12,348 bases of DNA. Origin: Alistipes sp. (lineage in GTDB: Bacteria > Bacteroidota > Bacteroidia > Bacteroidales > Rikenellaceae). The DNA lies in the NCBI GenBank assembly GCA_017934845.1, contig JAGBIR010000203.1, forward strand, positions 1 to 12,348, read 5' to 3'. The position numbers and the translations under genes were made by a program. A model generated the notes under the pieces. It did not search any database, had not been told where the DNA came from, and saw only the letters and a program-made list of their open reading frames with translations. Positions 1-12,348 of the stretch are shown piece after piece. The first letter of the stretch is position 1; the number at the start of each line of letters is the position of its first letter.

Positions 1-141
1 TGCTAACTTTTAATGCTTTATATTATGAAAAAATTATTTATCGCCACCCTCGCTATCGCCGCTCTCGCCAGCTGCAATAAGGACCAGGTTATTAACTTCG
101 ATAAATTCCCAATTAACTTCGGTGAGGCTTTCGTCGATAAT
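1..141 (+). repeat. Left arm of a perfect 141-bp inverted repeat
   Basis: These bases are identical, without mismatch or gap, to the reverse complement of 12208-12348; I compared the two base by base. The arm holds the 24 bases before the preferred start of L1 and its first 39 codons (signal peptide plus about 22 mature residues). Identity stops sharply: base 142 is A here and G in the other arm, and the proteins then diverge strongly. The arm begins at the first base of the window, so it may continue outside. Inside it a 10-bp direct repeat (ATTAACTTCG) occurs at 91-100 and 112-121, 21 bp apart. The inferred role is as the recombination arm for inversion of the whole segment. Confidence 0.97.
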
Positions 142-960
142 AGTGTCAGAGTCGACTATAGCAATGCAAATACCCTCCAGGGTTTCAATGTATATGGTAC
201 TGTAACAGGTACTGCTGGCATTGTACCTCTTTTCGACGGCGATGGTGCTACTGTTTCTCGTAATGGTGCTGCATACAATGCTGCATGGAATTGCTCAGAG
301 TCTGAGTATTGGATTCCTGGAGCTTCATACAGCTTTGCAGCTGTGGTTGACGCGACTCCAACTATTGTTAATGGTCTTCCTACAGCCCTTAAAACCATTG
401 CTGATGATGCAGCAACCGATAATATGAACCTCAAGGATATGCTTTACGCAACTCAGTCTGTTGCTGGTACATCGGTAACAGCAGACTACAATGAGCTCGT
501 TAAGTTCACTTTCTCTCACCTTTTGTCGAAGGTTAAGTTCACTGTAAAGTCTAACGCAGAAGGTACATACAAACATACTGTGACTAACATCACAGTTTCT
601 AACTACACTGAGGGTACTTATACTATTGATGGTGGTACATGGGCTCACGCCACTGCTACAGACAAGAATGTAGCTTTTGCAAGCATCGAGGGTGTAACCT
701 CAACAGATACTAATGGTGTTTCCAACGCTGATATGTTGCTTGTTCCAACAACATCAGATTTTGTTGTTACTTTCACCGTTGAACTTTACAAGGGTACAAC
801 TCAGCTCGGCACCGAGACCAAGAATATTACTGTATCTCAGGACCTCGTTAAGGGTAACGCTTATAATTTCCTAATCAACTGCGTTGTTGGTAAGGAGATT
901 CAGTTCTCTGTTACTAACGACCCAACTTGGGCTGTGCAGCCGGACATCACCGTTCAGTAA
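25..960 (+). CDS. Fimbrillin family lipoprotein L1 (putative main pilin, left operon)
   Basis: This is a predicted surface pilin of the FimA/Mfa-like type, 311 aa from the preferred start. An in-frame ATG at 13 would add four residues (MLYI), but the ATG at 25 gives a standard signal peptide, MKKLFIATLAIAALASC, with lipobox LASC and lipidated Cys17. The mature part has the family's central FSHLLSK motif (residues 163-169) and a C-terminal beta-rich ending, GNAYNF ... FSVTNDPTW ... ITVQ. In type V pili the lipoprotein is exported, its N-terminus is removed by a protease, and subunits join by strand exchange; that applies here by family only. The first 39 codons are identical to those of R1 at 12324-11374 while the rest is diverged. 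It is the first gene of a four-gene operon, separated from L2 by a hairpin. Being first and smallest suggests the main shaft subunit, but a base or accessory subunit is possible. Confidence 0.88.
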   Translation: MKKLFIATLAIAALASCNKDQVINFDKFPINFGEAFVDNSVRVDYSNANTLQGFNVYGTVTGTAGIVPLFDGDGATVSRNGAAYNAAWNCSESEYWIPGASYSFAAVVDATPTIVNGLPTALKTIADDAATDNMNLKDMLYATQSVAGTSVTADYNELVKFTFSHLLSKVKFTVKSNAEGTYKHTVTNITVSNYTEGTYTIDGGTWAHATATDKNVAFASIEGVTSTDTNGVSNADMLLVPTTSDFVVTFTVELYKGTTQLGTETKNITVSQDLVKGNAYNFLINCVVGKEIQFSVTNDPTWAVQPDITVQ

Positions 961-981
961 TTCGCTACGGCACAACAACTT

Positions 982-1011
982 GGCTATAAGGGTTTGATCG
1001 CCCTTATGGCC
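982..1011 (+). promoter_or_regulatory. Intercistronic hairpin between L1 and L2
   Basis: An 11-bp stem pairs 982-992 with 1001-1011 (GGCTATAAGGG with CCCTTATGGCC, one G-U pair) around an 8-base loop. It lies 21 bases after the L1 stop. No T-run follows (next bases are CTAATAACTAAAAAAG), so it is not a classic intrinsic terminator. A homologous hairpin sits at the same place in the right operon (11335-11361). A likely role is to protect the 3' end of the first cistron or to lower transcription of the later genes, so that the first pilin is made in excess; this is inference. Confidence 0.7.
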
Positions 1012-1035
1012 CCTAATAACTAAAAAAGTACGACA

Positions 1036-2088
1036 GTGAAAAAGATATTATTTACAATATTTGCGACAGCGGCATTGCTTGGATGTAGCGAGGGTGATCG
1101 AGGCATTACCCCTGCCACCCCGGGAGCTATCTCGTTCGGCAATGTCTCGACGCGCGTTGACAGCGCCTCCGAGATCAACGAGTTCAGCGTATGGGCCACG
1201 GTCAGCAGCATCACGGACGGCGCAGTTAACCCCGAGGTCAGCTATGTGCCTATTCTCGAAAATGAGCGTGTTTACCGCAACCCTGCCGGCTCCGACACTT
1301 GGACCTACGACAACACGGAGTATTGGATATCTAACAGCTGGTTCCATTTCTTCGCTGCATATCCGTATAATTTGGGAATTGAGCAGATTCGCCAGGCCCA
1401 AAACGGTCAATATTACACCGGTTATTTTCTCGAGGTAACAGCCGATGGCACAGCCGACACCCAGGATATTCTTGTCGCAACATGTATTAAGGATACCACT
1501 TCCGAGGGTATGTTCGATATGGCAAATCCTCCTGTTGTGCCTGTTTCGTTCAAACATCTGCTCTCAAAGTTGAAGCTAACCATAAGCCAGAACACCGATA
1601 TCGATTCCGAGTTCGAGTACTATATCACGAAAATTACAATCACCGGCATTTGCGACAAAGGAACATATGCGGTTATGCCGCTTAATAATCAATTTTTTGA
1701 AACTATTGACACAGTTGGCTCTACTACCATATCCATCGAGAAAGATTACGAGGATGCTCCTATTTGCCTTCGTGAAGATTTCGGAAATGGCCGTAAAAGC
1801 AAACCGCACATGGTGTTTGGCGAAGAAGGTGTTATGATGATTCCGCAGGAGATAGCAGTGGAAGCCATAGAGATCAAGGTTGACTACCTTTACGATGTCA
1901 ACCCCGATGACGAAGATTTAGGTACTCCAAAGAGCAAGTCCGGCCATATTCCTGCCATTACTTGGGAGTCCAACAAGTCATACCATTACAACCTCTCAAT
2001 TGCAAACACAAGCGCCATCACCTTCGATCAGCCGACTATCGAGCCTTGGGGATCGCCACAAACGGGAGGTACAATTATTATTAAATAG
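1036..2088 (+). CDS. Fimbrillin family lipoprotein L2 (putative accessory pilin, left operon)
   Basis: This 350-aa predicted lipoprotein begins with GTG at 1036; the start is supported by the signal peptide MKKILFTIFATAALLGC (lipobox LLGC, Cys17) and by alignment with the paralogue R2, whose Cys is also residue 17 from its MKK. The mature protein has the Mfa-like features WTYDNTEYWIS and FHFFAAYPY in the N-terminal domain and FKHLLSK at 172-178. It ends in WGSPQTGGTIIIK, almost the same as the end of R2 (WGTPQTGGTVIIK). It follows the intercistronic hairpin and is 15 bases from L3, so it is co-transcribed with L3 and L4. The GTG start plus the hairpin fit lower output than L1. An accessory or minor shaft subunit is most likely; the exact role cannot be read from sequence. 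Confidence 0.87.
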   Translation: MKKILFTIFATAALLGCSEGDRGITPATPGAISFGNVSTRVDSASEINEFSVWATVSSITDGAVNPEVSYVPILENERVYRNPAGSDTWTYDNTEYWISNSWFHFFAAYPYNLGIEQIRQAQNGQYYTGYFLEVTADGTADTQDILVATCIKDTTSEGMFDMANPPVVPVSFKHLLSKLKLTISQNTDIDSEFEYYITKITITGICDKGTYAVMPLNNQFFETIDTVGSTTISIEKDYEDAPICLREDFGNGRKSKPHMVFGEEGVMMIPQEIAVEAIEIKVDYLYDVNPDDEDLGTPKSKSGHIPAITWESNKSYHYNLSIANTSAITFDQPTIEPWGSPQTGGTIIIK

Positions 2089-2103
2089 TAAACGGTTCGC
2101 CTT

Positions 2104-3270
2104 ATGAAGATATATAACAAATTTTTAGCTGTGCTTTTTGCTATCGCCCTGGTGGGTTGTAGCAACAAGGACATTGCGCCCGATTCCGATATCGACATTC
2201 CGCTCGATCCGAACCAACGATATATCCAATTCGATGCAGATGTATCCACTCGTGGAGCCCTTATCGAGGGTAATCTCCTGCTTGACGACTTCTCCGTATT
2301 GGGCTATCAATATCCGGGTACCTGGGAGTCCGAGGCAGTCTTGGCTGCTCCAAATGTTTTCGATAAGACCCCGGAGAAAGTATATTACCGAAATGACGGA
2401 ACCTTCGACTATCTTGACGAAACCGGAGAAAAACTGAAAATCTGGACCAGAAACAGATACTCATTCTTCGGCTATTATCCTTCGGAGCATGCCAATATCA
2501 AGTTGTTTGACGACGGTACAGTCAAGCAAGGCACACCGTATATCACTTATACGCTTCCCGATGATAACGACCCTACAAATCTTATCGATGTTATGACCGC
2601 CTCGTATATCGATACAAGTGTTGCATCTTCGGCATCTGTATCTATGCAGTTCCGCCACCGTCTTTCGGCTATCGATGTTGGTGCGCGCAACTACTACGAG
2701 TACGATCACGATAACGACAAGACTACTGCTGCAAAGCTCGTTACTATCGAAATCACCAAATTGATTGTAAACCTTACAAATGTGGTCAATACCTCGGCTA
2801 AAATCTACCTCGACCATACCATTCCGAGTGTCTATCCCGAGAATCAGGCAAAAGCCTCCAAGGTTTACGCAATGGTTAATATTAACACACCTTGGGCCGT
2901 TACTTCTTTCGATGTTAAACCTAACACAAAGGAGGATCGAGCAATTCGTCTTGTAACAACCCAAACAGGCGAGAATGCATCGTCGATTATTCTTATCCCT
3001 CAAACAGAGTTCTTGCATGGCGCACTCGAATTGGTCTATAAGAAGAAGTACCAGGACGATAATGGCAACTGGATATATCTTCATGAGGGTACCAATACCG
3101 AGGACACCGAGTTTGAACCGACCGACCTCGGCATCAACTTCTCGAAGCAGCTGATCGAGGGCCGTCGCTACTATATCGAGCTTACCTTTACATCCGATGC
3201 CGTTTCGGTTAATATCGTTGCAGCCGACGAGTGGGACGACAAAGATGATATCCACCACGAATTTGAGTAA
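2104..3270 (+). CDS. Fimbrillin family lipoprotein L3 (putative accessory pilin, left operon)
   Basis: This 388-aa predicted exported lipoprotein has the signal peptide MKIYNKFLAVLFAIALVGC with lipobox LVGC (Cys19), followed by SNKD, the same residues that follow the Cys in R3. Motifs shared with R3 include RYI, PNVF, a YSFFGYYP-like segment, GTPYVTY/GTPYITY, the family motif at 183-189 (FRHRLSA) continuing into IDVGA, and the C-terminal run LTFTSDAVSVNI with DEW. The protein has the general size and beta-rich make-up of Mfa1/FimA-like pilins. It lies 15 bases after L2 and 16 bases before L4, in one operon. It is probably a minor pilin linking the shaft to the long L4 subunit, by analogy with accessory subunits of fim and mfa loci; that assignment is inferred from gene order alone. 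Confidence 0.86.
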   Translation: MKIYNKFLAVLFAIALVGCSNKDIAPDSDIDIPLDPNQRYIQFDADVSTRGALIEGNLLLDDFSVLGYQYPGTWESEAVLAAPNVFDKTPEKVYYRNDGTFDYLDETGEKLKIWTRNRYSFFGYYPSEHANIKLFDDGTVKQGTPYITYTLPDDNDPTNLIDVMTASYIDTSVASSASVSMQFRHRLSAIDVGARNYYEYDHDNDKTTAAKLVTIEITKLIVNLTNVVNTSAKIYLDHTIPSVYPENQAKASKVYAMVNINTPWAVTSFDVKPNTKEDRAIRLVTTQTGENASSIILIPQTEFLHGALELVYKKKYQDDNGNWIYLHEGTNTEDTEFEPTDLGINFSKQLIEGRRYYIELTFTSDAVSVNIVAADEWDDKDDIHHEFE

Positions 3271-3272
3271 AG

Positions 3273-3279
3273 AAAGGAG
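3273..3279 (+). promoter_or_regulatory. Shine-Dalgarno-like site for L4
   Basis: AAAGGAG lies 7 bases before the ATG at 3287, and a second AGGAG at 3282-3286 touches the start codon. Strong sites of this kind are uncommon in Bacteroidota. The equivalent spot before R4 has the related AGTTAGGGA before its ATGATG. This supports the start chosen for L4. Confidence 0.55.
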
Positions 3280-3286
3280 TTAGGAG

Positions 3287-6055
3287 ATGAGATACACAAA
3301 ATATATTACAACCCTTTTTGCCCTTATTGCCATTTCGGCTTGTACCATTGCCGATATCGACAATCAGGTAACTGTTGGCAACACCGCCAAAGACGATAAA
3401 ATTCAGGTCTTGGGCCGTATCACTCGTTTTGCCGATGTGGATGTCTCGACTCGTGGCGTTAAGGACCAGGACGAGGCGAAATTGACCTCTATGGCTCTGG
3501 CTATCTTCAAGGTGAACGCAGCAGGTGATGGTCTTGACGGCGACTGTGTTTACTATCAATACGCCGACGATCAAGCGGAACTCCTCTTTACTATCGAGCG
3601 TGGTAGCAACTACGACTACGATACTCGCTATGCAATGTATGTATTCTGCAATATGCCGGGTATGCAAACTGAAACTATGGGAGTTGGTACAAGTTTGAGC
3701 GAGATGATGGCTGCATTCTACAATGTCGAGAATATCGATATCCCTGCTAATGGCTTCCCGATGATGGGATCGCTGGGCGATACTTTCAGCACTACCTTCG
3801 ACAAGGATGGCAGAGTCTTCGTTCTTTCTCCTACCACCGAGAATGGTGATCTTACCACCCCAAAGGTCGATGGCGTTACTCAAACGCTCCTCACGATCCC
3901 TATGAAGGCTATGTATGCCAAGGTAAATTTCACTATCGATGTTGACCCCGACCAGACTATCGACGGCAACTATTCGCCACAGTTTACTTTGGAGGGTTAC
4001 ACTGTTAATAATGTACCTTCGACTGTCGATTTCAACAATAGTTCTAATGACGACGCAGCCGTTTTAGCGGATAGTTTCAGCCTGCCAATATCGGGCAATA
4101 CCGTAGCCTCGGGTGCTAATAAGATTAACTTCACATTCTACCTCCCGGAGCGCTATTTGGAGCCTGCAACCAAGCCTGCCGACTACGCCTATCCGTTCAA
4201 AAATGATGGAAAGATTCGTGGCGAGGACTCTGTCTATATGCAGCGCTACAAGCCCGAACTTGTTGGCAACAAAAAGGCTACAAATGTTGTGATTTCAGGT
4301 CGTTTCCGCGATCACCAAACTCACCATTGGGATGTCAAGTACACAATCTATCTCGGTGAGGACAACTACGGCGATTTCAATATTAAGCGCAACTGCGAAT
4401 ACCACAACTATATTACTATTCGCGGTATTCAGTCATCAAGCGATATGTCTGATAACGAGAACGCAATCTCTATCGACCATCGTGTCGATGTAACGCGCAC
4501 ACAGCCGGCTATTATCTCGTTGCGTCGCGAAACTTTGCTCGACTCGCACTTTGAGGTACGACCTTTGCGTGTAATTAAGAGCGAGGTTTCCGACTCGTCT
4601 ATCAATGCCGTTAAGGTCGAGGTTGTTAATCCGACCACTACCACCTGGATGCGTTTGGAGCGTAGCTTTGGCGATGGAACGCCTGAGGGCTCGCCACAGA
4701 CAACGGTTAATGGCACAGCTACCTCCATCTATATCGATAGCGACGCAACTAGCGCATCGTATGGTAAGCGTAAGTTCTTTACCTACAATCTTATCGATGG
4801 TGTAAATGCCAATGAAACGGATGCGTCGTTGGTCAATAGCACCGAGGTTATCTTGCCAATTACCGAGGCAACCGAGTGTTGCTGGATCTATATCGATGAG
4901 TGTACCGAGGTGGGCGATGCAGTCCGCTCGGGTATTGTTAAGGTATCGTATGGAAAGCTTGAAGGCACAACCTTTACCCCTGCCAACAACTCATCATATC
5001 CCGATGTGCAGTATATTATCAATCAGCGCAAATTGTTCCAGGTAACCTACGACGATCCCGAGACTACTGCTGAAGAGAATCGCACCTACAATATCGAGTA
5101 CGAGGAGGAGTATCTCCACAACTTCGATGCCGATGATAACTTTGGCCAAACCGAGTACGAAGGTATGCCGTGGGGATTGGATGGAGTACACCTATCATAT
5201 GATTTAAGAGCATTATTCTTTGGTAATGCTAATCAAGGTTGGCTTGCAAATCTTTTTAATGGAATCGTTAATGCTGTTGCAGCTGGCACTGGAGTGAATC
5301 CTCTTTATGATTTCTATATACCAAAACATGATACCGGCGTATCAACATTGGCAACTAAGCGTGGCTATAGTGGTTATGAATTCTCAAGTGAAATAATTCA
5401 AACTGTTAATGGCGGACAAACGGATAGCAATGGAGATGCTTACGACACCGACACCTCTAATGATATCAATATTCTTAAATTAGACGAAGATCCAAAATCG
5501 GCTATCGAATATTGCTTTAACAAAAATAAGCGCAATAATAAGGGAGAGGTTGTATGGCAAAATACTGATGGCACCTATAACCAGAGCCAACTTAATTGGT
5601 ATCTTCCGGCTATTGATGAAATTGAGGATATCGTAATGGGCACTTATGGTAATAATCAGTATGCATATGCTCGTTTTATAGACTTTCAAGAGAAGTTCTA
5701 TTGGTCATCTCAGCCATCGTATATTAGAAATTTTGCAAGGTACGAAATCACTGGGCAAAATGGCGAGTTCTATTACGATGATACTACGCACGCCAGAGCA
5801 ACAAGTGTATGGAGAAACACAAGTGAGAATAAGTTCGATTATGCGCGTAGTGGTTCTACGAGCTATTTTGCTGCGCTAAGAATCTATGCAACTAGTATTT
5901 GGGATGTTCTTGACCCTAGCTATCAAATATTATATGAGGGCAGCTATCAAGATCATACACTTGGTACAATTATTCGTGAAGATGGTAACCGCCCTCGAAC
6001 ATCTAAGGCGCGTGTGCGATGCGTGCGTAAGATCGATACAACAACCACCGAATAA
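3287..6055 (+). CDS. Long DUF4906-like fimbrial lipoprotein L4 (putative tip adhesin, left operon)
   Basis: This is a 922-aa predicted lipoprotein with signal peptide MRYTKYITTLFALIAISAC (lipobox ISAC, Cys19). Residues about 25-430 form the fimbrillin/DUF4906-like part: a MYAKVNFTIDV segment, LPERY at 286-290, YLG at 355-357 followed by DFNIKRN, an IRGIQ motif and RRETLLDSHFEVRP. A second region to about 630 ends in the QTEYEGMPWGLD segment. The last 290 residues are a separate module with SAIEYCFNKNK, NWYLPAIDEIED from 770, YWSSQPSY, ARATS and the ending ARVRCVRK. The pattern W-LP-E ... YWSS ... RCVR is typical of DUF1566-like C-type-lectin-fold modules; that fold is inferred. GC falls in this last module, suggesting a swapped domain. 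Its place as last and largest subunit fits a pilus-tip adhesin. It pairs with R4 over the full length. It ends 12 bases before a strong terminator. Confidence 0.87.
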   Translation: MRYTKYITTLFALIAISACTIADIDNQVTVGNTAKDDKIQVLGRITRFADVDVSTRGVKDQDEAKLTSMALAIFKVNAAGDGLDGDCVYYQYADDQAELLFTIERGSNYDYDTRYAMYVFCNMPGMQTETMGVGTSLSEMMAAFYNVENIDIPANGFPMMGSLGDTFSTTFDKDGRVFVLSPTTENGDLTTPKVDGVTQTLLTIPMKAMYAKVNFTIDVDPDQTIDGNYSPQFTLEGYTVNNVPSTVDFNNSSNDDAAVLADSFSLPISGNTVASGANKINFTFYLPERYLEPATKPADYAYPFKNDGKIRGEDSVYMQRYKPELVGNKKATNVVISGRFRDHQTHHWDVKYTIYLGEDNYGDFNIKRNCEYHNYITIRGIQSSSDMSDNENAISIDHRVDVTRTQPAIISLRRETLLDSHFEVRPLRVIKSEVSDSSINAVKVEVVNPTTTTWMRLERSFGDGTPEGSPQTTVNGTATSIYIDSDATSASYGKRKFFTYNLIDGVNANETDASLVNSTEVILPITEATECCWIYIDECTEVGDAVRSGIVKVSYGKLEGTTFTPANNSSYPDVQYIINQRKLFQVTYDDPETTAEENRTYNIEYEEEYLHNFDADDNFGQTEYEGMPWGLDGVHLSYDLRALFFGNANQGWLANLFNGIVNAVAAGTGVNPLYDFYIPKHDTGVSTLATKRGYSGYEFSSEIIQTVNGGQTDSNGDAYDTDTSNDINILKLDEDPKSAIEYCFNKNKRNNKGEVVWQNTDGTYNQSQLNWYLPAIDEIEDIVMGTYGNNQYAYARFIDFQEKFYWSSQPSYIRNFARYEITGQNGEFYYDDTTHARATSVWRNTSENKFDYARSGSTSYFAALRIYATSIWDVLDPSYQILYEGSYQDHTLGTIIREDGNRPRTSKARVRCVRKIDTTTTE

Positions 6056-6067
6056 GTCCCCTCATCT

Positions 6068-6101
6068 GCCGGGTATCGAAAACGATACTCGGCTTTTTCT
6101 T
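6068..6101 (+). terminator. Rho-independent terminator of the left operon
   Basis: An 11-bp stem pairs 6068-6078 (GCCGGGTATCG) with 6083-6093 (CGATACTCGGC), with one G-U pair and an AAAA loop, followed directly by TTTTTCTT. It begins 12 bases after the L4 stop. Read on the other strand the hairpin has no T-run after it, so it serves the + strand operon. Confidence 0.9.
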
Positions 6102-6102
6102 G

Positions 6103-6116
6103 CCCCCCCCAAAAAA
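6103..6116. repeat. C8-A6 homopolymer run between the terminators
   Basis: Eight C are followed by six A in the spacer between the convergent operons. On the - strand this reads T6-G8, and the T run may be the tail of the right-operon terminator. Such runs slip easily during copying, but this one is not in a gene, so a change in length would have little effect beyond terminator strength. Confidence 0.8.
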
Positions 6117-6145
6117 CAAGCAGAGAGGTAGTCATCGACTACCTC
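6111..6145 (-). terminator. Probable terminator of the right operon
   Basis: A 9-bp perfect stem pairs 6125-6133 (GAGGTAGTC) with 6137-6145 (GACTACCTC) around a 3-base loop. Read on the - strand, the stem is followed by TCTGCTTG and then six T (complement of 6111-6116). The gap between stem and T-run is longer than usual, so it is less canonical than its neighbour. The stem lies about 50 bases after the R4 stop. Confidence 0.65.
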
Positions 6146-6167
6146 CCTACCTTCAATATATTAAATT

Positions 6168-6212
6168 AATTTGTGGTCACCTAATTTGTGGTTACCTAAT
6201 TTGTGGTTACGG
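6168..6212. repeat. Three-copy 15-bp tandem repeat over the R4 stop codon
   Basis: The units are at 6168-6182, 6183-6197 and 6198-6212: AATTTGTGGTCACCT, AATTTGTGGTTACCT and AATTTGTGGTTACGG. On the - strand each unit reads V-T-T-N-stop in the frame of R4, giving VTTN-TAG, VTTN-TAG, VTTN-TAA. R4 ends at the first of these; the other two are extra copies of its last four codons and stop. It is probably a slippage duplication. Confidence 0.93.
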
Positions 6213-8901
6213 TTGTCGGTCTGCCATATACACAACGCACGCGGGCCTTGTGATTGCGTAAAAGATTACCATCCTCATGTGCTACACTATTTAGAGAGCG
6301 AGAGTTGTATGAGCCAGAATAATACATGGTTGCTTTTGGGTTCCATGGTTGATTATATACTTGTATTGCATCATCATATCCAGTAGATCCACTTTTGACA
6401 TAGTCCTTTACAATAGAACCATTGGTACTCGTATAAGTATAAACCTTTGTGGCACGAGCTCTACCCTCATTAGTTTTGACTAATTTACCATCATCGTTAT
6501 TATAATAGCCATAATCATCAGTATAATAAGATCCATCTATTGAAATCCACACATTATAATGTGCATAATTAGGGTTATATGAGGGTTGGCACGACCAATA
6601 GTAATTTTCTTGAAATTCAGGATAACTGTTATATGCGCCCATAACAAAATCCTCTATTTCATCAATCGCAGGCAGATACCAATTTACTGTAATTGTACCG
6701 TCCGCATTTTTTTTGTTCTTGTTGTAGCAATATTCAATAGCACTATTGGCAAATTGGTCAAGTTGTAGGCCTGATATAGTACCAGTATATCCAGTATCCC
6801 TGTTGGAGTTATTTTTTGTATTTATATCTTGAATGATTTCTGTATTGAAATCAAAGCCCTTATGGTCGTGCTTTTCCGCGTTATCCAAAATTGAAGTATC
6901 ATGTTTAGAAACATAAAAATCATACATAGGATTAACTCCTGCCCAAGATTGAATTCCAGAAATAATCCAATCGATCAAATCAATCGTATCCGTAAATAAA
7001 AGTGCGTTATGATCAAATGAAAGGATTGCATTATCTAGTCCCCACACCATACCATTTTGTTCGGTTTGGTTGTAGTCATCGTTAGCGTCGTAGTTGTACA
7101 GGTACTCTTCGTGGCATTCGATAAGGTAAGTGTAGCCATTATAAGTAACCTCGTGAAGGTCATATTGGTTAATGGTATAGTCGATAGGATTGGAAGGGTC
7201 CTCGCTATAAGTCACACGAACCACCGCAGTACGATAGGTCTTTTGTCCCTTATTTGTGTTTTCATCAACATAAATCCACACAGTCTGGTCGTCCTTGGAG
7301 AGGTTGACATCAACATAAGTATTCTTTTTTAGCGTATTAGTGACAAGATCTGTAGTAAAGTACTTACGCTTTCCCGCCGAAACTCCCGAAGTGATATGGT
7401 TATCAGAAGATCCACTAGCCTCCAAACGGATCCAAGTAAAAGTAGATTCGGAAGCGTTCAGGACCTCAACTCTTGCTGTGGCATTCGAAGGAATATTATC
7501 TCCAACAAGGCGCAGACGCATAGGACGCACCTCGAAATGGGCATCAAGCAAGGTCTCACGGCGGAGATTGATAACAAGAGGAGTCGAGCGCTCAACATTC
7601 ACACGGTGGTCAATAGCGATACCATTCGTATTGGTCGCCTGGTCGCTCGAGTTCTGAATACCGCGAATCGTTACCGTATTCTCGTAGTGAGTATTTCTAA
7701 TAAGGTCGAAATTGCTATAATTGTCACCGCCAAGGTGGATATTGTAGCTAACATCGTATGTATGCTCTTGGTGATCGCAGAACTTACCGGTAATTGTAAT
7801 ATAGGTCGCTGCCTTACCATCTACAAGCTTACCCTTGAAACGCTGGCGAAGGTTTTCGTCCTCATCGCGAATGCCGTTCTGATCCTTATCGATAGTTTTG
7901 TCGTAAGTACCAGGAGCCTTTTTGAACGGATAGGCGTAATTCTCCGCCGATGTAGTAGGAGTCAAATAACGCTCCGGAAGATAGAATGTGAAAGTGGCCG
8001 TTGTAGCACCTTGTGCATAGACTCCGCTCGGCGCATACTCTTTTGATTTCTCAAGAACATTCGAGTCGGAGTTGGTGGTACTGTCGAGGTCAACGGTCGC
8101 TGCGATATTATTAACCTGATAGCTTAGCAAATCGAAACGAGGAGCCGCATTATCGGAGATATCCTGATCGGGTACAACCTTGATAGTAAACGAAACTTTG
8201 GCGTAGAGAGCCTTCATAGGGATCTCCAAGTTGTCGGTAGGGACATACTCTACACCAGCACCTGCACCATCATGATCAACTAAAGGAAGACCATCTGTAT
8301 TTGTGTCGCTTGCAGCCGGTTTTAGAATGAAATATTTTCCGTCGGCGAGAAGTTCATCACCATTCTTGCTGACATAATCGCCCAAAGAACCAATCATAGG
8401 GAATCCGCTCTCAGGAACATCGGCGATATCGACAGAAACGGTTTGATAGCTTTGCACGAAAGTTGTGATGGGCTTACCTTTTGCATCATCTTCTGTTGTA
8501 GGAAATCCTGTACAGTTGTGCATATTTGCAAAGACATACATCGCATATTGCTTGCCCGTATATAGGTCACCGGCGAAATCTTTTGCACGGTCAATAACGA
8601 ATACAATGTTGCTACCCTCCTTATAGTCATAGTAAGCGCAATTTCCCAACGCGCCATCTTCGATTGGAAACAGAGCCAATGCCATAGAGGAAACATTCGC
8701 TTCAGTAGCACTCTTGTCCGAACGAGTGTTTACATCGCAATCTTCGTATTGCACAACACGACAGTGAACTTGCACTTTGTCTTTACCTACTCCGGTTGCG
8801 CCCGCACCGATGTTGACAACTTCATCGATGTCGGTAGTCGCACAAGAGGCAGCAATAAAGAATGCTGCTACTGCCATTAAATATTTTGTGTATTTCATCA
8901 T
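6196..8901 (-). CDS. Long DUF4906-like fimbrial lipoprotein R4 (putative tip adhesin, right operon)
   Basis: This 901-aa predicted lipoprotein is the full-length paralogue of L4. Starts at 8901 or 8898 are both possible (ATGATG); the signal peptide ends in IAASC with Cys20 from the first Met. Shared segments include TDID after the Cys, MKALYAKVSFTI, LPERY at 308-312, the HLGGDNYSNFDLIRN and TIRGIQNSSD motifs, RRETLLDAHFEVRP, and QTEQNGMVWGLD near 605-620. The C-terminal module has NPMYDFY, SAIEYCYNKNK, NWYLPAIDEIED from 740, YWSCQPSY (Cys where L4 has Ser), ARATK, EDGN and ARVRCV. The loops between these blocks differ in length and sequence from L4, as expected if the two tips bind different targets. 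GC drops in the C-terminal third. It is the last gene of its operon, 18 bases after R3, with its stop inside a 15-bp tandem repeat. Confidence 0.87.
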   Translation of the reverse strand: MMKYTKYLMAVAAFFIAASCATTDIDEVVNIGAGATGVGKDKVQVHCRVVQYEDCDVNTRSDKSATEANVSSMALALFPIEDGALGNCAYYDYKEGSNIVFVIDRAKDFAGDLYTGKQYAMYVFANMHNCTGFPTTEDDAKGKPITTFVQSYQTVSVDIADVPESGFPMIGSLGDYVSKNGDELLADGKYFILKPAASDTNTDGLPLVDHDGAGAGVEYVPTDNLEIPMKALYAKVSFTIKVVPDQDISDNAAPRFDLLSYQVNNIAATVDLDSTTNSDSNVLEKSKEYAPSGVYAQGATTATFTFYLPERYLTPTTSAENYAYPFKKAPGTYDKTIDKDQNGIRDEDENLRQRFKGKLVDGKAATYITITGKFCDHQEHTYDVSYNIHLGGDNYSNFDLIRNTHYENTVTIRGIQNSSDQATNTNGIAIDHRVNVERSTPLVINLRRETLLDAHFEVRPMRLRLVGDNIPSNATARVEVLNASESTFTWIRLEASGSSDNHITSGVSAGKRKYFTTDLVTNTLKKNTYVDVNLSKDDQTVWIYVDENTNKGQKTYRTAVVRVTYSEDPSNPIDYTINQYDLHEVTYNGYTYLIECHEEYLYNYDANDDYNQTEQNGMVWGLDNAILSFDHNALLFTDTIDLIDWIISGIQSWAGVNPMYDFYVSKHDTSILDNAEKHDHKGFDFNTEIIQDINTKNNSNRDTGYTGTISGLQLDQFANSAIEYCYNKNKKNADGTITVNWYLPAIDEIEDFVMGAYNSYPEFQENYYWSCQPSYNPNYAHYNVWISIDGSYYTDDYGYYNNDDGKLVKTNEGRARATKVYTYTSTNGSIVKDYVKSGSTGYDDAIQVYNQPWNPKATMYYSGSYNSRSLNSVAHEDGNLLRNHKARVRCVYGRPTTVTTN

Positions 8902-8919
8902 TTCCCTAACTTTTTTGCG

Positions 8920-10197
8920 TTACTCAAATTCGTATCCAACCTTTATGTCGTTCCACTCGTCCGATGTGATAATATTGATAGATACCGCAGACGATGTAAA
9001 TGTCAACTGCACATAGTAGCGGCTACCCTCCTTAATCTCGCGGTTGAAAGTTGCCGTTTTTGTTTCTGTGTATGTGTCGTTGTTATTTGTATCCGTCAAA
9101 TAAGTGCCATCCGGACGCTTTTTCTTAAATGTAACGGTTGTTGTTACGGTAGGCGCAGCTTCGCTGTCCCCTGCAACTTGCGGAATAAAGAGCATTGTTG
9201 TCTCGTTATCCGCAGAAATAGATTGCATCGCAGCATCTGTGTTGTAGTGCAAAGTCTGTGGCGACTTTACAATCGAGTATGCAGGTTGAGAATCGGCATT
9301 GGTAAGGCTCTTTACACCCTTTGGAAGGGCAAGCGATCCATCGGAATTTAGAGTTTCAAAATCCTTATCCAAATAGATATCTGCCCCTTTGTACTTAATG
9401 CCGGTAAACGCTACATTAAGAGATGTAATCTCAATCTGGATATTTTCGGTTACTAAATAACCCGTTAGCGTTCCATTTTCATCTTTAATTTCTGTTATGG
9501 CGATACCTTCAACCAATTCTGGAAGGGTAGCATCTGCTCCAAGGTCGTAATTGTTCTGGTAGAAATTAAGAGCGCCCACATCAATAGCTGCCAAACGATG
9601 GTAGAAATTGAAATATACATACTGGCTCGAACTCAAACTGGTATCTTCAAACATGGCAGTCATAATATCGGCGTGATTCGAAGAATCGCCCATATCAACC
9701 GAGTAAGTTACATACGGCGTTCCCTCTACATTTTCATCGCTGGCTGCGACATTAGCATGGCCAAATGGATAGTATGCAAAGAATGTGTACTTGGCACCAT
9801 CCCACTGCTTGATAGGAGTGTAAGAGTAGATCTCGTCTGCATATGTAACCTCTTGCGGAGCAACAGGGGTGGCTAAATAGGAGTTTCCACTAGCATCTGT
9901 TCCATCTTCTCCAAAAACATTAGGCTTGGCAGTAACACGATAGGTTGTCCACTTGTTACTGAAATCGTACTTGTAGCCATACGCGCCAAAAGTTTTTTGA
10001 AGTTTTTCGCCAGTAACGAGGTTTCCGCGACTCTTTACTCCGCTGTCAAGGTAAATGTATCGCGCATCGGGATTAGGCAATATAACATCTTCTCCACCCT
10101 CGCCATTTGGCGCATACAGATCCTTATTGCTGCAACTACAAACAAGGACAGCAATCAAAAGTGTAAATATGTAGCTATATTTTTTCATCTTCTTCAT
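8920..10197 (-). CDS. Fimbrillin family lipoprotein R3 (putative accessory pilin, right operon)
   Basis: This 425-aa predicted lipoprotein is the paralogue of L3. Translation may begin at 10197 (MKKMKK) or at 10188 (MKKYSY); both give a signal peptide ending in LVCSC, with Cys22 from the first Met aligned with Cys19 of L3 and followed by SNKD in both. Shared blocks are RYI, KPNVF/APNVF, YTFFAYYPFGHAN, EGTPYVTY, IMTAMFEDTS, FYHRLAAIDVG (198-208) and the end LTFTSSAVSINI with DEW and a final EFE. It is longer than L3 mainly through inserts in the middle of the protein. It starts only 5 bases after the R2 stop and ends 18 bases before R4, so it is translated from the same transcript. The role is the same as for L3: probably a minor pilin, from context. 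Confidence 0.86.
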   Translation of the reverse strand: MKKMKKYSYIFTLLIAVLVCSCSNKDLYAPNGEGGEDVILPNPDARYIYLDSGVKSRGNLVTGEKLQKTFGAYGYKYDFSNKWTTYRVTAKPNVFGEDGTDASGNSYLATPVAPQEVTYADEIYSYTPIKQWDGAKYTFFAYYPFGHANVAASDENVEGTPYVTYSVDMGDSSNHADIMTAMFEDTSLSSSQYVYFNFYHRLAAIDVGALNFYQNNYDLGADATLPELVEGIAITEIKDENGTLTGYLVTENIQIEITSLNVAFTGIKYKGADIYLDKDFETLNSDGSLALPKGVKSLTNADSQPAYSIVKSPQTLHYNTDAAMQSISADNETTMLFIPQVAGDSEAAPTVTTTVTFKKKRPDGTYLTDTNNNDTYTETKTATFNREIKEGSRYYVQLTFTSSAVSINIITSDEWNDIKVGYEFE

Positions 10198-10202
10198 TGC
10201 TA

Positions 10203-11273
10203 TTATTTAATAATTACTGTTCCACCGGTCTGCGGTGTACCCCATGCACTAATAGTGGTCTGGATGTAGTATAGCGTAATATCCTTTACATCCGAAAGCA
10301 ATACATTGTAAACAATATTTTGACCTGCACGCCATGTTGTCGCAGGTGGCAACTGAATATCGATTTTCTTCGTCTCTCTATCTGTTGCACCAGAACGAAG
10401 GTGCTCGTAAACGATTGAGATTTTAGAGCCAGAAAGTGTTTGAGGGATCAAAATTAACTCAGAGAAAGGGGCTACTGTTCCACTTCCCTGAATGGTTGAA
10501 TTTTCGCCAATGGTTCCAGCGCCAAGTTCTACTGTTGTCGCATAAGTCCTGCTCAACTGCATTGTTTCTGTACCATATGTCCAATTGTCTTCTACATCAT
10601 TGAAAATGGATGTATAGAAAATTCCTGACTTTTTAACTCCAGTAAACTCTACCGATTTAAGATACATTTTGTCGTTTTTGTTCTTCGCACCATCTCGCCA
10701 AATCTTCAAACTAACTTTTGTAAGTTCGTGCTCAAACTTGAAATCAACTGTCGGGTAGTTCTCTTGATTGGTTACTGTTACAACAGGCTCGAACGCAGTA
10801 ATAAAATCTGCATCTGCAGCATCGGGAGTCGTGAAACTCAAAGCATAACCATCTTTATCGGAGATCGAGGTTGGTTCTATTTTCCAAAGACCAATTTGTT
10901 CTGATTTTGATCCATTTTCAAGATAAGGACAATATGCAAAGAAACGGAAAGTACGGTCGTCCACCCAATAGCGAGTATTAGTGTATGTCCATGGCGAAGC
11001 CGCATCAACGCGCGAAATCTTTTCGTTAGACAATAGGTCTATGAATGTTGTATTCAAAGGATTGCCATTTCCATCAACGCTCGTATCATTATCGCCTGCC
11101 AAATTCATCTGTGCGTATACTCCGAATTGCAGAATTTCATCCGCGTTATTGATAGCTGCTCTTGTTTTCAGATCGCCGAACTCGATAGCGACATTAGGCG
11201 TCGCATCGATGGTGTGGTCGCTGCAAGCGGCAAGAGCTGTGGTTGCCAATATTGCGAGTAATAATTTTTTCAT
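10203..11273 (-). CDS. Fimbrillin family lipoprotein R2 (putative accessory pilin, right operon)
   Basis: This is the paralogue of L2, 356 aa from the preferred ATG at 11273; an in-frame ATG at 11288 would add MSLGI and has an AGGGA-like stretch before it, so the start is not settled. From 11273 the signal peptide is MKKLLLAILATTALAAC (lipobox LAAC, Cys17), matching L2 position for position. Further shared features are WTYTNTRYWVDD, FRFFAYCPY, the family motif FEHELTK at 180-186 followed by VSLKIW, and the near-identical end WGTPQTGGTVIIK. The middle of the protein is strongly diverged from L2. It lies after the intercistronic hairpin and 5 bases before R3. A minor or second shaft pilin is the likely role. 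Confidence 0.86.
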   Translation of the reverse strand: MKKLLLAILATTALAACSDHTIDATPNVAIEFGDLKTRAAINNADEILQFGVYAQMNLAGDNDTSVDGNGNPLNTTFIDLLSNEKISRVDAASPWTYTNTRYWVDDRTFRFFAYCPYLENGSKSEQIGLWKIEPTSISDKDGYALSFTTPDAADADFITAFEPVVTVTNQENYPTVDFKFEHELTKVSLKIWRDGAKNKNDKMYLKSVEFTGVKKSGIFYTSIFNDVEDNWTYGTETMQLSRTYATTVELGAGTIGENSTIQGSGTVAPFSELILIPQTLSGSKISIVYEHLRSGATDRETKKIDIQLPPATTWRAGQNIVYNVLLSDVKDITLYYIQTTISAWGTPQTGGTVIIK

Positions 11274-11334
11274 AATACCCAAACTCATTATCCCTTTTTT
11301 ACATCATTGCGGGAGCCAATCTCCCATCTTGCGG

Positions 11335-11361
11335 CCATAAGAGGTAATCAGCCCCTTATGG
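11335..11361 (-). promoter_or_regulatory. Intercistronic hairpin between R1 and R2
   Basis: A 10-bp stem pairs 11352-11361 with 11335-11344 (on the - strand CCATAAGGGG with CCTCTTATGG, one G-U pair) around a 7-base loop, 12 bases after the R1 stop. Downstream on the - strand a second small hairpin pairs GGGAG and CTCCC (11321-11325 and 11311-11315). Neither is followed directly by a T-run. Position and core sequence (ATAAGGG ... CTTATGGCC) match the hairpin at 982-1011 of the left operon. Confidence 0.7.
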
Positions 11362-11373
11362 TCAAAAAATTTG

Positions 11374-12324
11374 TTACTGAACAGTGACATTTGTGTCATC
11401 GCCCCAACCTGCCAAACCATTCTCAGCAGCAATTGTGAAATCAATCTTATTGCCCGCTTTAAGTTGTACAGCAAGGTTGTACGAACAACCCTCTGCAAAT
11501 GTCGTTGTCAGTTCTTTTGTTACATCAGTGCTATAAACCTCAGTTCCATTAAACTTTAACACATAGTGGAATTTCAAAGTTGCAGCAGCGCCAGGAATAA
11601 TTAACTGAGCACCAGCGCTCGTTGCTACATTGTAGGCGAGGCCAGATAATGCGCTATATGTAAGGTTTGCAGAGCCTGTTCCGTCTTGTGCCCAAGGTGT
11701 GGCAGCACCGATGGTATAAATACCCTTATCCCAAGTGCTGATTTGCACACCCGAAACCTCGTATGTATAGTCTGCGCTTTCATTCAAATTAACAAACGAG
11801 ACCTTAATACGCGAAAGAAGGTGGCGCATGGTAAACGCGACGACCTTGTTACCATTTACGCCCGAAATTGGCACACTATTCGCATCGGTTGCAGCAGTTA
11901 CATTGCCACTATAAATCAAATCTGCAGGATCTGTTGGGTTGACGGTATAGCTAATCTTTGTAGGGATGCCATTCACACATTCAGCTGCTGTACCATTGGC
12001 AATAGCAGCAAAATTGTAAGTACAATCAGGTGTCCAATAGCGAGTAACGCTGCAAGTCCAGGCTACGCCCAAAGCAGCATTATTTCGATCTACTGTTGCG
12101 CCAGTGTCGCCGTAAAGAGCAACAGGGGTAGCATTTGTACCCTGAACATTTCCCCAAACGGTAAAACCGGTAATGTCGTCGCCATCCTCATAGATAGCTT
12201 TAGTCGCATTATCGACGAAAGCCTCACCGAAGTTAATTGGGAATTTATCGAAGTTAATAACCTGGTCCTTATTGCAGCTGGCGAGAGCGGCGATAGCGAG
12301 GGTGGCGATAAATAATTTTTTCAT
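11374..12324 (-). CDS. Fimbrillin family lipoprotein R1 (putative main pilin, right operon)
   Basis: This 316-aa predicted pilin lipoprotein (320 aa if the ATG at 12336 is used) has the same signal peptide as L1, MKKLFIATLAIAALASC, because its first 39 codons lie in the inverted repeat. From codon 40 the two proteins differ strongly, though they remain homologous: both have an SEYW/TRYW block, a central motif (here MRHLLSR at 166-172) and a C-terminal VTVQ/ITVQ ending. It contains WAQDGTG and a GWGDD segment near the end. It is the first gene of the right operon. Its role would be the same as that of L1, forming an antigenically different shaft. The sharp change from complete identity to low similarity points to recombination or gene conversion limited to the 5' end. 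Confidence 0.88.
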   Translation of the reverse strand: MKKLFIATLAIAALASCNKDQVINFDKFPINFGEAFVDNATKAIYEDGDDITGFTVWGNVQGTNATPVALYGDTGATVDRNNAALGVAWTCSVTRYWTPDCTYNFAAIANGTAAECVNGIPTKISYTVNPTDPADLIYSGNVTAATDANSVPISGVNGNKVVAFTMRHLLSRIKVSFVNLNESADYTYEVSGVQISTWDKGIYTIGAATPWAQDGTGSANLTYSALSGLAYNVATSAGAQLIIPGAAATLKFHYVLKFNGTEVYSTDVTKELTTTFAEGCSYNLAVQLKAGNKIDFTIAAENGLAGWGDDTNVTVQ

Positions 12325-12348
12325 AATATAAAGCATTAAAAGTTAGCA
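12208..12348 (-). repeat. Right arm of a perfect 141-bp inverted repeat
   Basis: This arm is identical in reverse complement to bases 1-141. It includes the 24 bases before the preferred start of R1 and its first 39 codons in the same reading frame as L1, so a crossover anywhere in it leaves both first genes uninterrupted. It reaches the last base of the window and may extend further. Confidence 0.97.

Follow-up and report, generated by a model that had tools for sequence, protein, structure and literature searches.

DNA inversions are already known in Bacteroidales. As described in the available parts of the articles cited here, they include SusC/SusD shufflon-type inversions of B. fragilis with Tsr0667 (PMC4747536, PMC12632263) and Mpi-type promoter inversion, through whose inverted repeats surface structures undergo phase variation (PMC12632263, PMC10939037). 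The same partial texts state that inversions can carry new genes to an active site (PMC10939037), list fimbrillin genes among those enriched near invertons (PMC11892184) and describe a pilin gene inversion in Moraxella bovis (PMC11868660). Here, a stretch of 12,348 nucleotides from Alistipes sp. (assembly GCA_017934845.1, contig JAGBIR010000203.1) was analysed in full and is called the window; it carries two sets of fimbrial genes facing each other between inverted copies of one repeat. According to our analysis, it is probably an invertible segment that would swap the distal module of a pilus behind one head, and the exchange of whole pilus modules would set it apart from these systems.

The locus can be set beside each of these systems. 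As in the SusC/SusD shufflon with its Tsr-type invertase, DNA inversion would bring alternative surface-protein genes into expression; unlike in that shufflon, the genes concerned are multi-gene pilus modules of the type V pilin family (~5–6 kilobases (kb) each), convergent in one ~12-kb segment, in which Pfam found fimbrillin families only and no SusC/SusD gene. With Mpi promoters the locus has inverted repeats and surface-structure variation in common, whereas the Mpi segment switches an operon on or off and the present one carries the operons, the presumed promoter lying outside; instead of a short promoter-bearing segment, the window is 12 kb filled by convergent operons. As in Moraxella bovis, the inversion would exchange alternative pilins behind a constant 5' part, but there single type IV pilin genes are concerned and neither minor pilins nor a tip are exchanged. 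The Moraxella bovis pilin inversion depends on a different recombinase class, Piv. In the fimB/fimE switch of E. coli, which PMC11868660 cites, fimbriae are likewise controlled by a recombinase of about 200 amino acids (aa), which flips a promoter element of ~300 base pairs (bp), whereas gene modules would flip here. The available parts of PMC11868660 and PMC8748976 contain nothing on Bacteroidales fimbrial modules, and a title and abstract search, with most of the subscription literature outside its range, found no description of inversion between whole fimbrial modules in Alistipes.

Organization of the window

The window contains two convergent four-gene sets of open frames (Table 1). Pfam cut-offs were passed by seven of the eight proteins (five Mfa_like_1 and two DUF4906), operon 2 gene 3 having no Pfam match, and no window protein rose above an NCBIfam cut-off. 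The proteins belong to the type V (FimA/Mfa-like) pilins by these Pfam families and by predicted fold: the model of operon 1 gene 1, with a mean predicted local distance difference test (pLDDT) score of 83.6, matched Bacteroides fimbrial proteins (best 4qb7, E 1.2e-12, template modelling score 0.58), and the weaker tip model (pLDDT 71.4) had its top structure matches in the same family. Sequence-only searches of solved structures returned no match for fimbrillin, tip or recombinase. Counterparts in operons 1 and 2 are 34% (gene 2), 41% (gene 3) and 47% (gene 4) identical. The two first genes have their start, frame and 43 codons in common, as the initial annotation had noted for start and frame, and the bodies beyond this leader are 32% identical. 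Both carry LPAM_1, the signal of a lipoprotein precursor, together with a basic residue (R46 or K46) at the presumed protease site, three residues past the shared leader. The same annotation had called the two inward-facing fimbrillin operons complete; they are present and open, but "complete" is too strong a word, since relatives add a DUF3575-DUF5119 head and often more fimbrillins.

Table 1. Features of the window and of the corresponding loci in genomes G041 and G003.
Feature	Position	Strand	Remarks
Window, left repeat arm	1..141	+	12 bp 5' of the start codon and codons 1-43 of operon 1 gene 1; contig end
Window, operon 1 gene 1, stalk-type fimbrillin	13..960	+	Mfa_like_1, lipoprotein signal, predicted type V pilin fold
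Window, intercistronic hairpin after fimbrillin gene	982..1011	+	recurs in many relatives
Window, operon 1 gene 2, minor fimbrillin	1036..2088	+	Mfa_like_1; GTG start
Window, operon 1 gene 3, minor fimbrillin	2104..3270	+	Mfa_like_1
Window, operon 1 gene 4, presumed tip pilin, 922 aa	3287..6055	+	DUF4906; C-terminal sub-threshold Lcl_C
Window, terminator-like hairpin after operon 1, 11 pairs	6068..6093	+	picked for stem length and place
Window, terminator-like hairpin after operon 2, 16 pairs	6118..6152	-	picked for stem length and place
Window, operon 2 gene 4, presumed tip pilin, 901 aa	6196..8901	-	DUF4906; 47% identity to operon 1 tip
Window, operon 2 gene 3, minor fimbrillin	8920..10197	-	synteny and 41% identity to operon 1 gene 3
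Window, operon 2 gene 2, minor fimbrillin	10203..11288	-	Mfa_like_1
Window, diverged copy of intercistronic hairpin, operon 2	11334..11363	-	
Window, operon 2 gene 1, stalk-type fimbrillin	11374..12336	-	Mfa_like_1; 43-codon leader same as operon 1 gene 1
Window, right repeat arm	12208..12348	-	equivalent content for operon 2 (12 bp upstream and codons 1-43 of gene 1)
G041, head	L233 side, upstream		DUF3575 and DUF5119 genes, then fimbrillin array
G041, last array fimbrillin	L105 677-1591		
G041, palindromic site 1, CACTTTTGTTAGAAGTGAGAT, 21 bp	L105 1596-1616		just past array fimbrillin stop
G041, module 1 fimbrillin	L105 1670-2614		
G041, module 1, 778-aa Mfa_like_1 protein	L105 2845-5181		
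G041, module 1, Exo_endo_phos-domain protein	L105 5875-7509		
G041, module 2, tip and two minor fimbrillins	L105 13585 down to 8716		faces module 1; without stalk fimbrillin of its own
G041, palindromic site 2, inverted copy of the 21 bp	L105 13904-13924		
G041, tyrosine recombinase, 195 aa, PF00589	L105 14006-14593		adjoins site 2
G003, outer end	C67		fimbrillin array, last stop 32 bp before repeat
G003, outer end	C10		repeat in inverted orientation; upstream of the DUF3575-DUF5119 head, divergent from it
G003, inner module	C58		fimbrillins, minor pilins, tip
G003, inner module	C2		fimbrillins, with a 781-aa protein that shares 55% identity with the module-1 protein of G041

Limits of the inverted repeat

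Because the window is the entire contig G000:C59 of a metagenome-assembled genome (242 contigs, 70% complete), the arms of the repeat are contig ends. They match perfectly over 141/141 positions (1-141 vs 12208-12348), and in 50 order-1 Markov resamples of the window, inverted exact matches reached 20 bp at most. The repeat reported in the initial annotation is hence confirmed as perfect, but its length, taken there as biological, is that of the assembler k-mer, the largest default k of MEGAHIT being 141. Contig ends were compared for 100 of the 241 other contigs of the bin (minus 11 masked and one cut at 20 kb, which left 88 and the window), with a threshold of at least 25 bp for an exact end-to-end overlap. 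The single other overlap was of 141 bp too, four further contig-end words matched within other contigs over 31-85 bp, and contig ends of the relative G003 likewise overlap by 141 bp. Therefore, the figure was set by assembly and the true repeat measures at least 141 bp: its inner edge, at position 141, is a real divergence, its outer edge is the contig stop, and it may extend outward past the contig end. The contig would appear identical for a fixed and for a flipping segment. A 30-base stretch of the leader had no exact match in viral contigs.

The layout in related genomes

Fimbrial loci of relatives that could be read through (e.g., L107, L116, L118, L183, L189 and L193, with Pfam on L107, L112, L116 and L118) usually follow one order on one strand, i.e., DUF3575, DUF5119, one to several tandem fimbrillins, minor fimbrillins and a DUF4906-type tip. 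The tip of operon 1 was matched in 26 of the 180 genus genomes and, among the matches listed, two separate tip genes occurred in the window genome only.

A full layout of the proposed kind lies on one contig in G041 (coordinates of L105, with L233 upstream). The initial annotation had proposed that the order of flanks and operons be compared among relatives, and in G041 this comparison places the head and array outside, two convergent alternative modules inside, and a recombinase gene next to one of two inverted sites. These sites are 21/21 identical and 12.3 kb apart, and their palindrome forms one inverted pair only in the G041 sequence examined; a flip between them would place module 2 behind the array. 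A 17-bp core of the palindrome (at most one mismatch) had five matches in three of the 180 genus genomes, all five at fimbrial loci. In G094, one contig has the core behind an array fimbrillin and another has it directly behind a recombinase 80% identical to that of G041, with 63 bp identical. A recombinase gene thus stands beside a palindromic site in both genomes.

In G003, a 177-bp repeat links two outer contig ends to two alternative module contigs. A 19-bp palindrome, AAGTTCTTATCAAGAACTT, exactly forms its outer edge; among the 180 genomes, this palindrome is found in one, at these contig ends only. Outside the edge, the two flanks have no base in common. Head and array apparently lie between the inverted copies in G003, and two modules lie between them in the window. 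The repeat ends at a homologous codon in the two genomes (...FGEAFVDN in the window vs ...FGDAFVEN in G003, with different leader DNA), in both just before the presumed protease site.

Discordance between leaders and bodies

With the first 48 residues alone as the query, 23 of 26 candidate proteins reached E <= 10. The comparison covered 22 sequences, i.e., both window genes, 19 hits and P0004 (three fragments and the window's own entry were left out), with leaders trimmed to their last 39 residues, which made 231 pairs of proteins; the database proteins come without genomic context. Leader and body identity were weakly correlated (Spearman 0.23). Identical leaders were seen in 10 of the 231 pairs, five of which had bodies less than 60% identical; without the window's own genes, this held for three of seven such pairs, namely P0243 with P0249 and with P0250 (38 and 35%) and P0241 with P0242 (59%). 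The reverse case, bodies above 85% and leaders below 85%, was met in seven pairs that are not all independent (e.g., v1-P0004, body 91%, leader 67%). In the databases, unrelated bodies can thus carry one leader, and a given body can follow different leaders. Besides, the fimbrillin bodies of P0241-P0254 look like mosaics built from few blocks, with 54-92% identity in many body pairs, which suggests recombination within the bodies too.

A model of module exchange

Of the explanations considered, inversion of the window is the best supported, by homology of layout and not by observed flipping. The window would form the variable region of a type V (FimA/Mfa-like) pilus locus in Alistipes, with two alternative distal modules, each of a stalk-type pilin, two minor pilins and a tip, convergent between the inverted copies of the repeat. 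A head outside the window (DUF3575-DUF5119, probably followed by more fimbrillins) would carry the promoter and read through the repeat into the facing module, while the other module stays silent. The modules would be swapped when the ~12-kb segment inverts, and the likeliest agent is a small tyrosine recombinase that works at a palindrome directly beyond the end of the window; palindromic sites are seen in G041 and G003, and the expected position in the window genome, the outer edge of the repeat, falls beyond the contig. The joint would sit within the leader and pro-strand, a portion that the mature pilin has probably lost, so that the swap would leave every gene undamaged. Indeed, the available part of PMC12632263 reports that type V pilins undergo N-terminal trimming during assembly, so that the leader shared here probably does not persist in the mature pilin.

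The flip of ~12 kb behind one outer promoter, as put forward in the initial annotation, is thereby backed by the G041 layout, the G003 fork and the leader/body discordance, but it is not shown for the window genome itself. The accompanying claim that the cell changes the whole pilus was overstated: the head and any upstream array would stay, and it is the stalk-type pilin, two minor pilins and tip that would change. Stated in full as a module-exchange system in Alistipes, the scheme is more tentative, with a chance that we put slightly short of even. It would comprise a fixed, promoter-bearing head with array, two convergent alternative stalk-minor-tip modules and a dedicated tyrosine recombinase of ~195 aa at the far end; in the window species and G003, the joint in the leader/pro-strand would permit scarless exchange of unrelated pilins, leaders being concerted within a strain while bodies diverge. 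If this is true, a gut commensal would exchange its pilin, minor subunits and adhesive tip all at once instead of turning one pilus on or off, and the enzyme, the sites and the two defined states involved would be open to testing. It would also explain the breaking of fimbrillin loci at the leader in the G000 and G003 assemblies, the two examined closely, and methods that seek only short intergenic inverted repeats may underestimate the number of such switches.

Several results weigh against this model. Among the assembled contigs, which were the only material, the second orientation was observed nowhere. Searches of the window's own bin (70% complete) found no contig continuing the repeat, neither the G041 nor the G003 palindrome, no small recombinase (the one match, at 23%, was to an integrase-family protein of 300 aa) and no DUF5119 head, for which control genomes gave none either. 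The whole layout was seen on one contig in only one of the 180 genomes, and there the joint and cargo differ from those of the window: the G041 sites are intergenic, no leader is common to the modules and module 2 is without a stalk pilin. In G003, the overlap of C2 with the outer ends is 98 and not 141 bp long, and no contig joins head and array, whose link we infer. The 21-bp inverted match of G041 is barely longer than the top match (20 bp) among 50 resamples of L105, and a reversed control of the 17-bp core gave eight chance matches in eight genomes, vs five real ones. The control outnumbers the real matches; therefore, it is their place, and not their length or number, that carries the argument. 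Sixteen near-full-length relatives of the recombinase were found in the 180 genomes, of which two lie beside fimbrial genes, one (G003:C66) has a non-fimbrial neighbourhood and 13 were left unread; the recombinase family is not tied to fimbriae. Terminator-like sites are not enriched in the window (10 vs 9.1 expected from shuffles).

Alternative explanations

The window might instead hold a fixed pair of diverged duplicates, whose 5' ends are kept identical by RecA-dependent gene conversion or by selection on the leader, with no programmed inversion. Gene conversion predicts leader haplotypes on unrelated bodies equally well, the fimbrillin bodies themselves look mosaic, and the failure to find a recombinase, the palindromes or an alternate orientation in the 70%-complete bin of the window genome is also on its side. 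However, a recombinase gene and palindromic site adjoin a module in G041 and G094, the outer edge of the G003 repeat coincides with a palindrome to the base, and conversion alone leaves the convergent modules of G041, bounded by inverted sites, unexplained. With these points taken together, we regard a fixed pair as unlikely, though deserving of serious attention.

A larger shufflon, in which more than two modules with the same repeat are reshuffled by inversion and deletion and the window is one pair among them, would account for the presence in databases of three or more body classes whose leaders are almost the same (w1, v1, P0181, P0241-P0254), and the alternative modules of G003 and G094 lie on different contigs, both G003 module contigs continuing into other genes. 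Yet the 141-mer occurs in two copies only in the window's bin, and the database proteins come from unplaced contigs and may belong to different strains, which makes this arrangement improbable. That the contig is chimeric or its terminal duplicate made by the assembler, so that the chromosome has no inverted repeat, is suggested by the identity of repeat length and k-mer. However, when an unbranched de Bruijn path starts and ends in the same k-mer, both genes truly share that k-mer. Moreover, the inner divergence is sharp, both genes are intact, and close homologues of both first genes exist elsewhere, with leaders that are identical (P0001) or differ by one residue (P0122); an artefact is very improbable. 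Inversion of the window between two pilus modules hence stays our preferred explanation.

Hairpins and other features of the fimbrial loci

Two long terminator-like hairpins stand back to back at the window centre. A promoter scan of the window was uninformative (35 found vs 27.4 expected). Between stalk and minor pilin genes, a conserved intercistronic hairpin has an 11-bp stem, with strong covariation and G-U pairs, and an 8-nucleotide loop, often TTTGATCG; it perhaps sets the stalk-to-tip mRNA ratio.

Hairpin H (GGCTATAAGGG-N8-CCCTTATAGCC), two copies of which make up a perfect inverted pair of 26 bp in G041, was initially taken as the recombination site. It was then rejected as the main site on two grounds, its place after fimbrillin genes on the coding strand in many relatives and the pattern of changes in its stem. 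In 25 sequences chosen from the matches, its stem had compensatory and G-U changes, with 97.1% of cells paired and 31 cells changed on both sides, which none of 500 shuffles equalled. These changes point to an RNA hairpin. One copy lies between recombinase and fimbrillin in G094, and hairpin H may have a role in recombination.

Dispersed intergenic repeats of ~130 bp (CGTCATTGCGAGG...) occur around the G041 modules in both orientations (L105 2679-2808, 5192-5588, 7730-8621 and 13638-13809); they were set aside as inversion sites, being present in several copies in both orientations. The alternative module of G041 (L105 5875-7509) and that of G003 (L230 4497-6344) encode, next to their fimbrillins, a protein that has an endonuclease/exonuclease/phosphatase-like domain. 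In both tips of the window, a sub-threshold Lcl_C match in the C-terminal part (22.2 and 21.7 bits, cut-off 34.9) marks, from sequence, a possible ligand-binding region. Finally, L239 (G143:C36) holds at 6871-14891 two convergent fimbrillin-like genes of ~1,170 aa with inverted stretches of 918 bp (88%), 194 bp (92%) and 54 bp (100%), which is another possible invertible fimbrillin pair.

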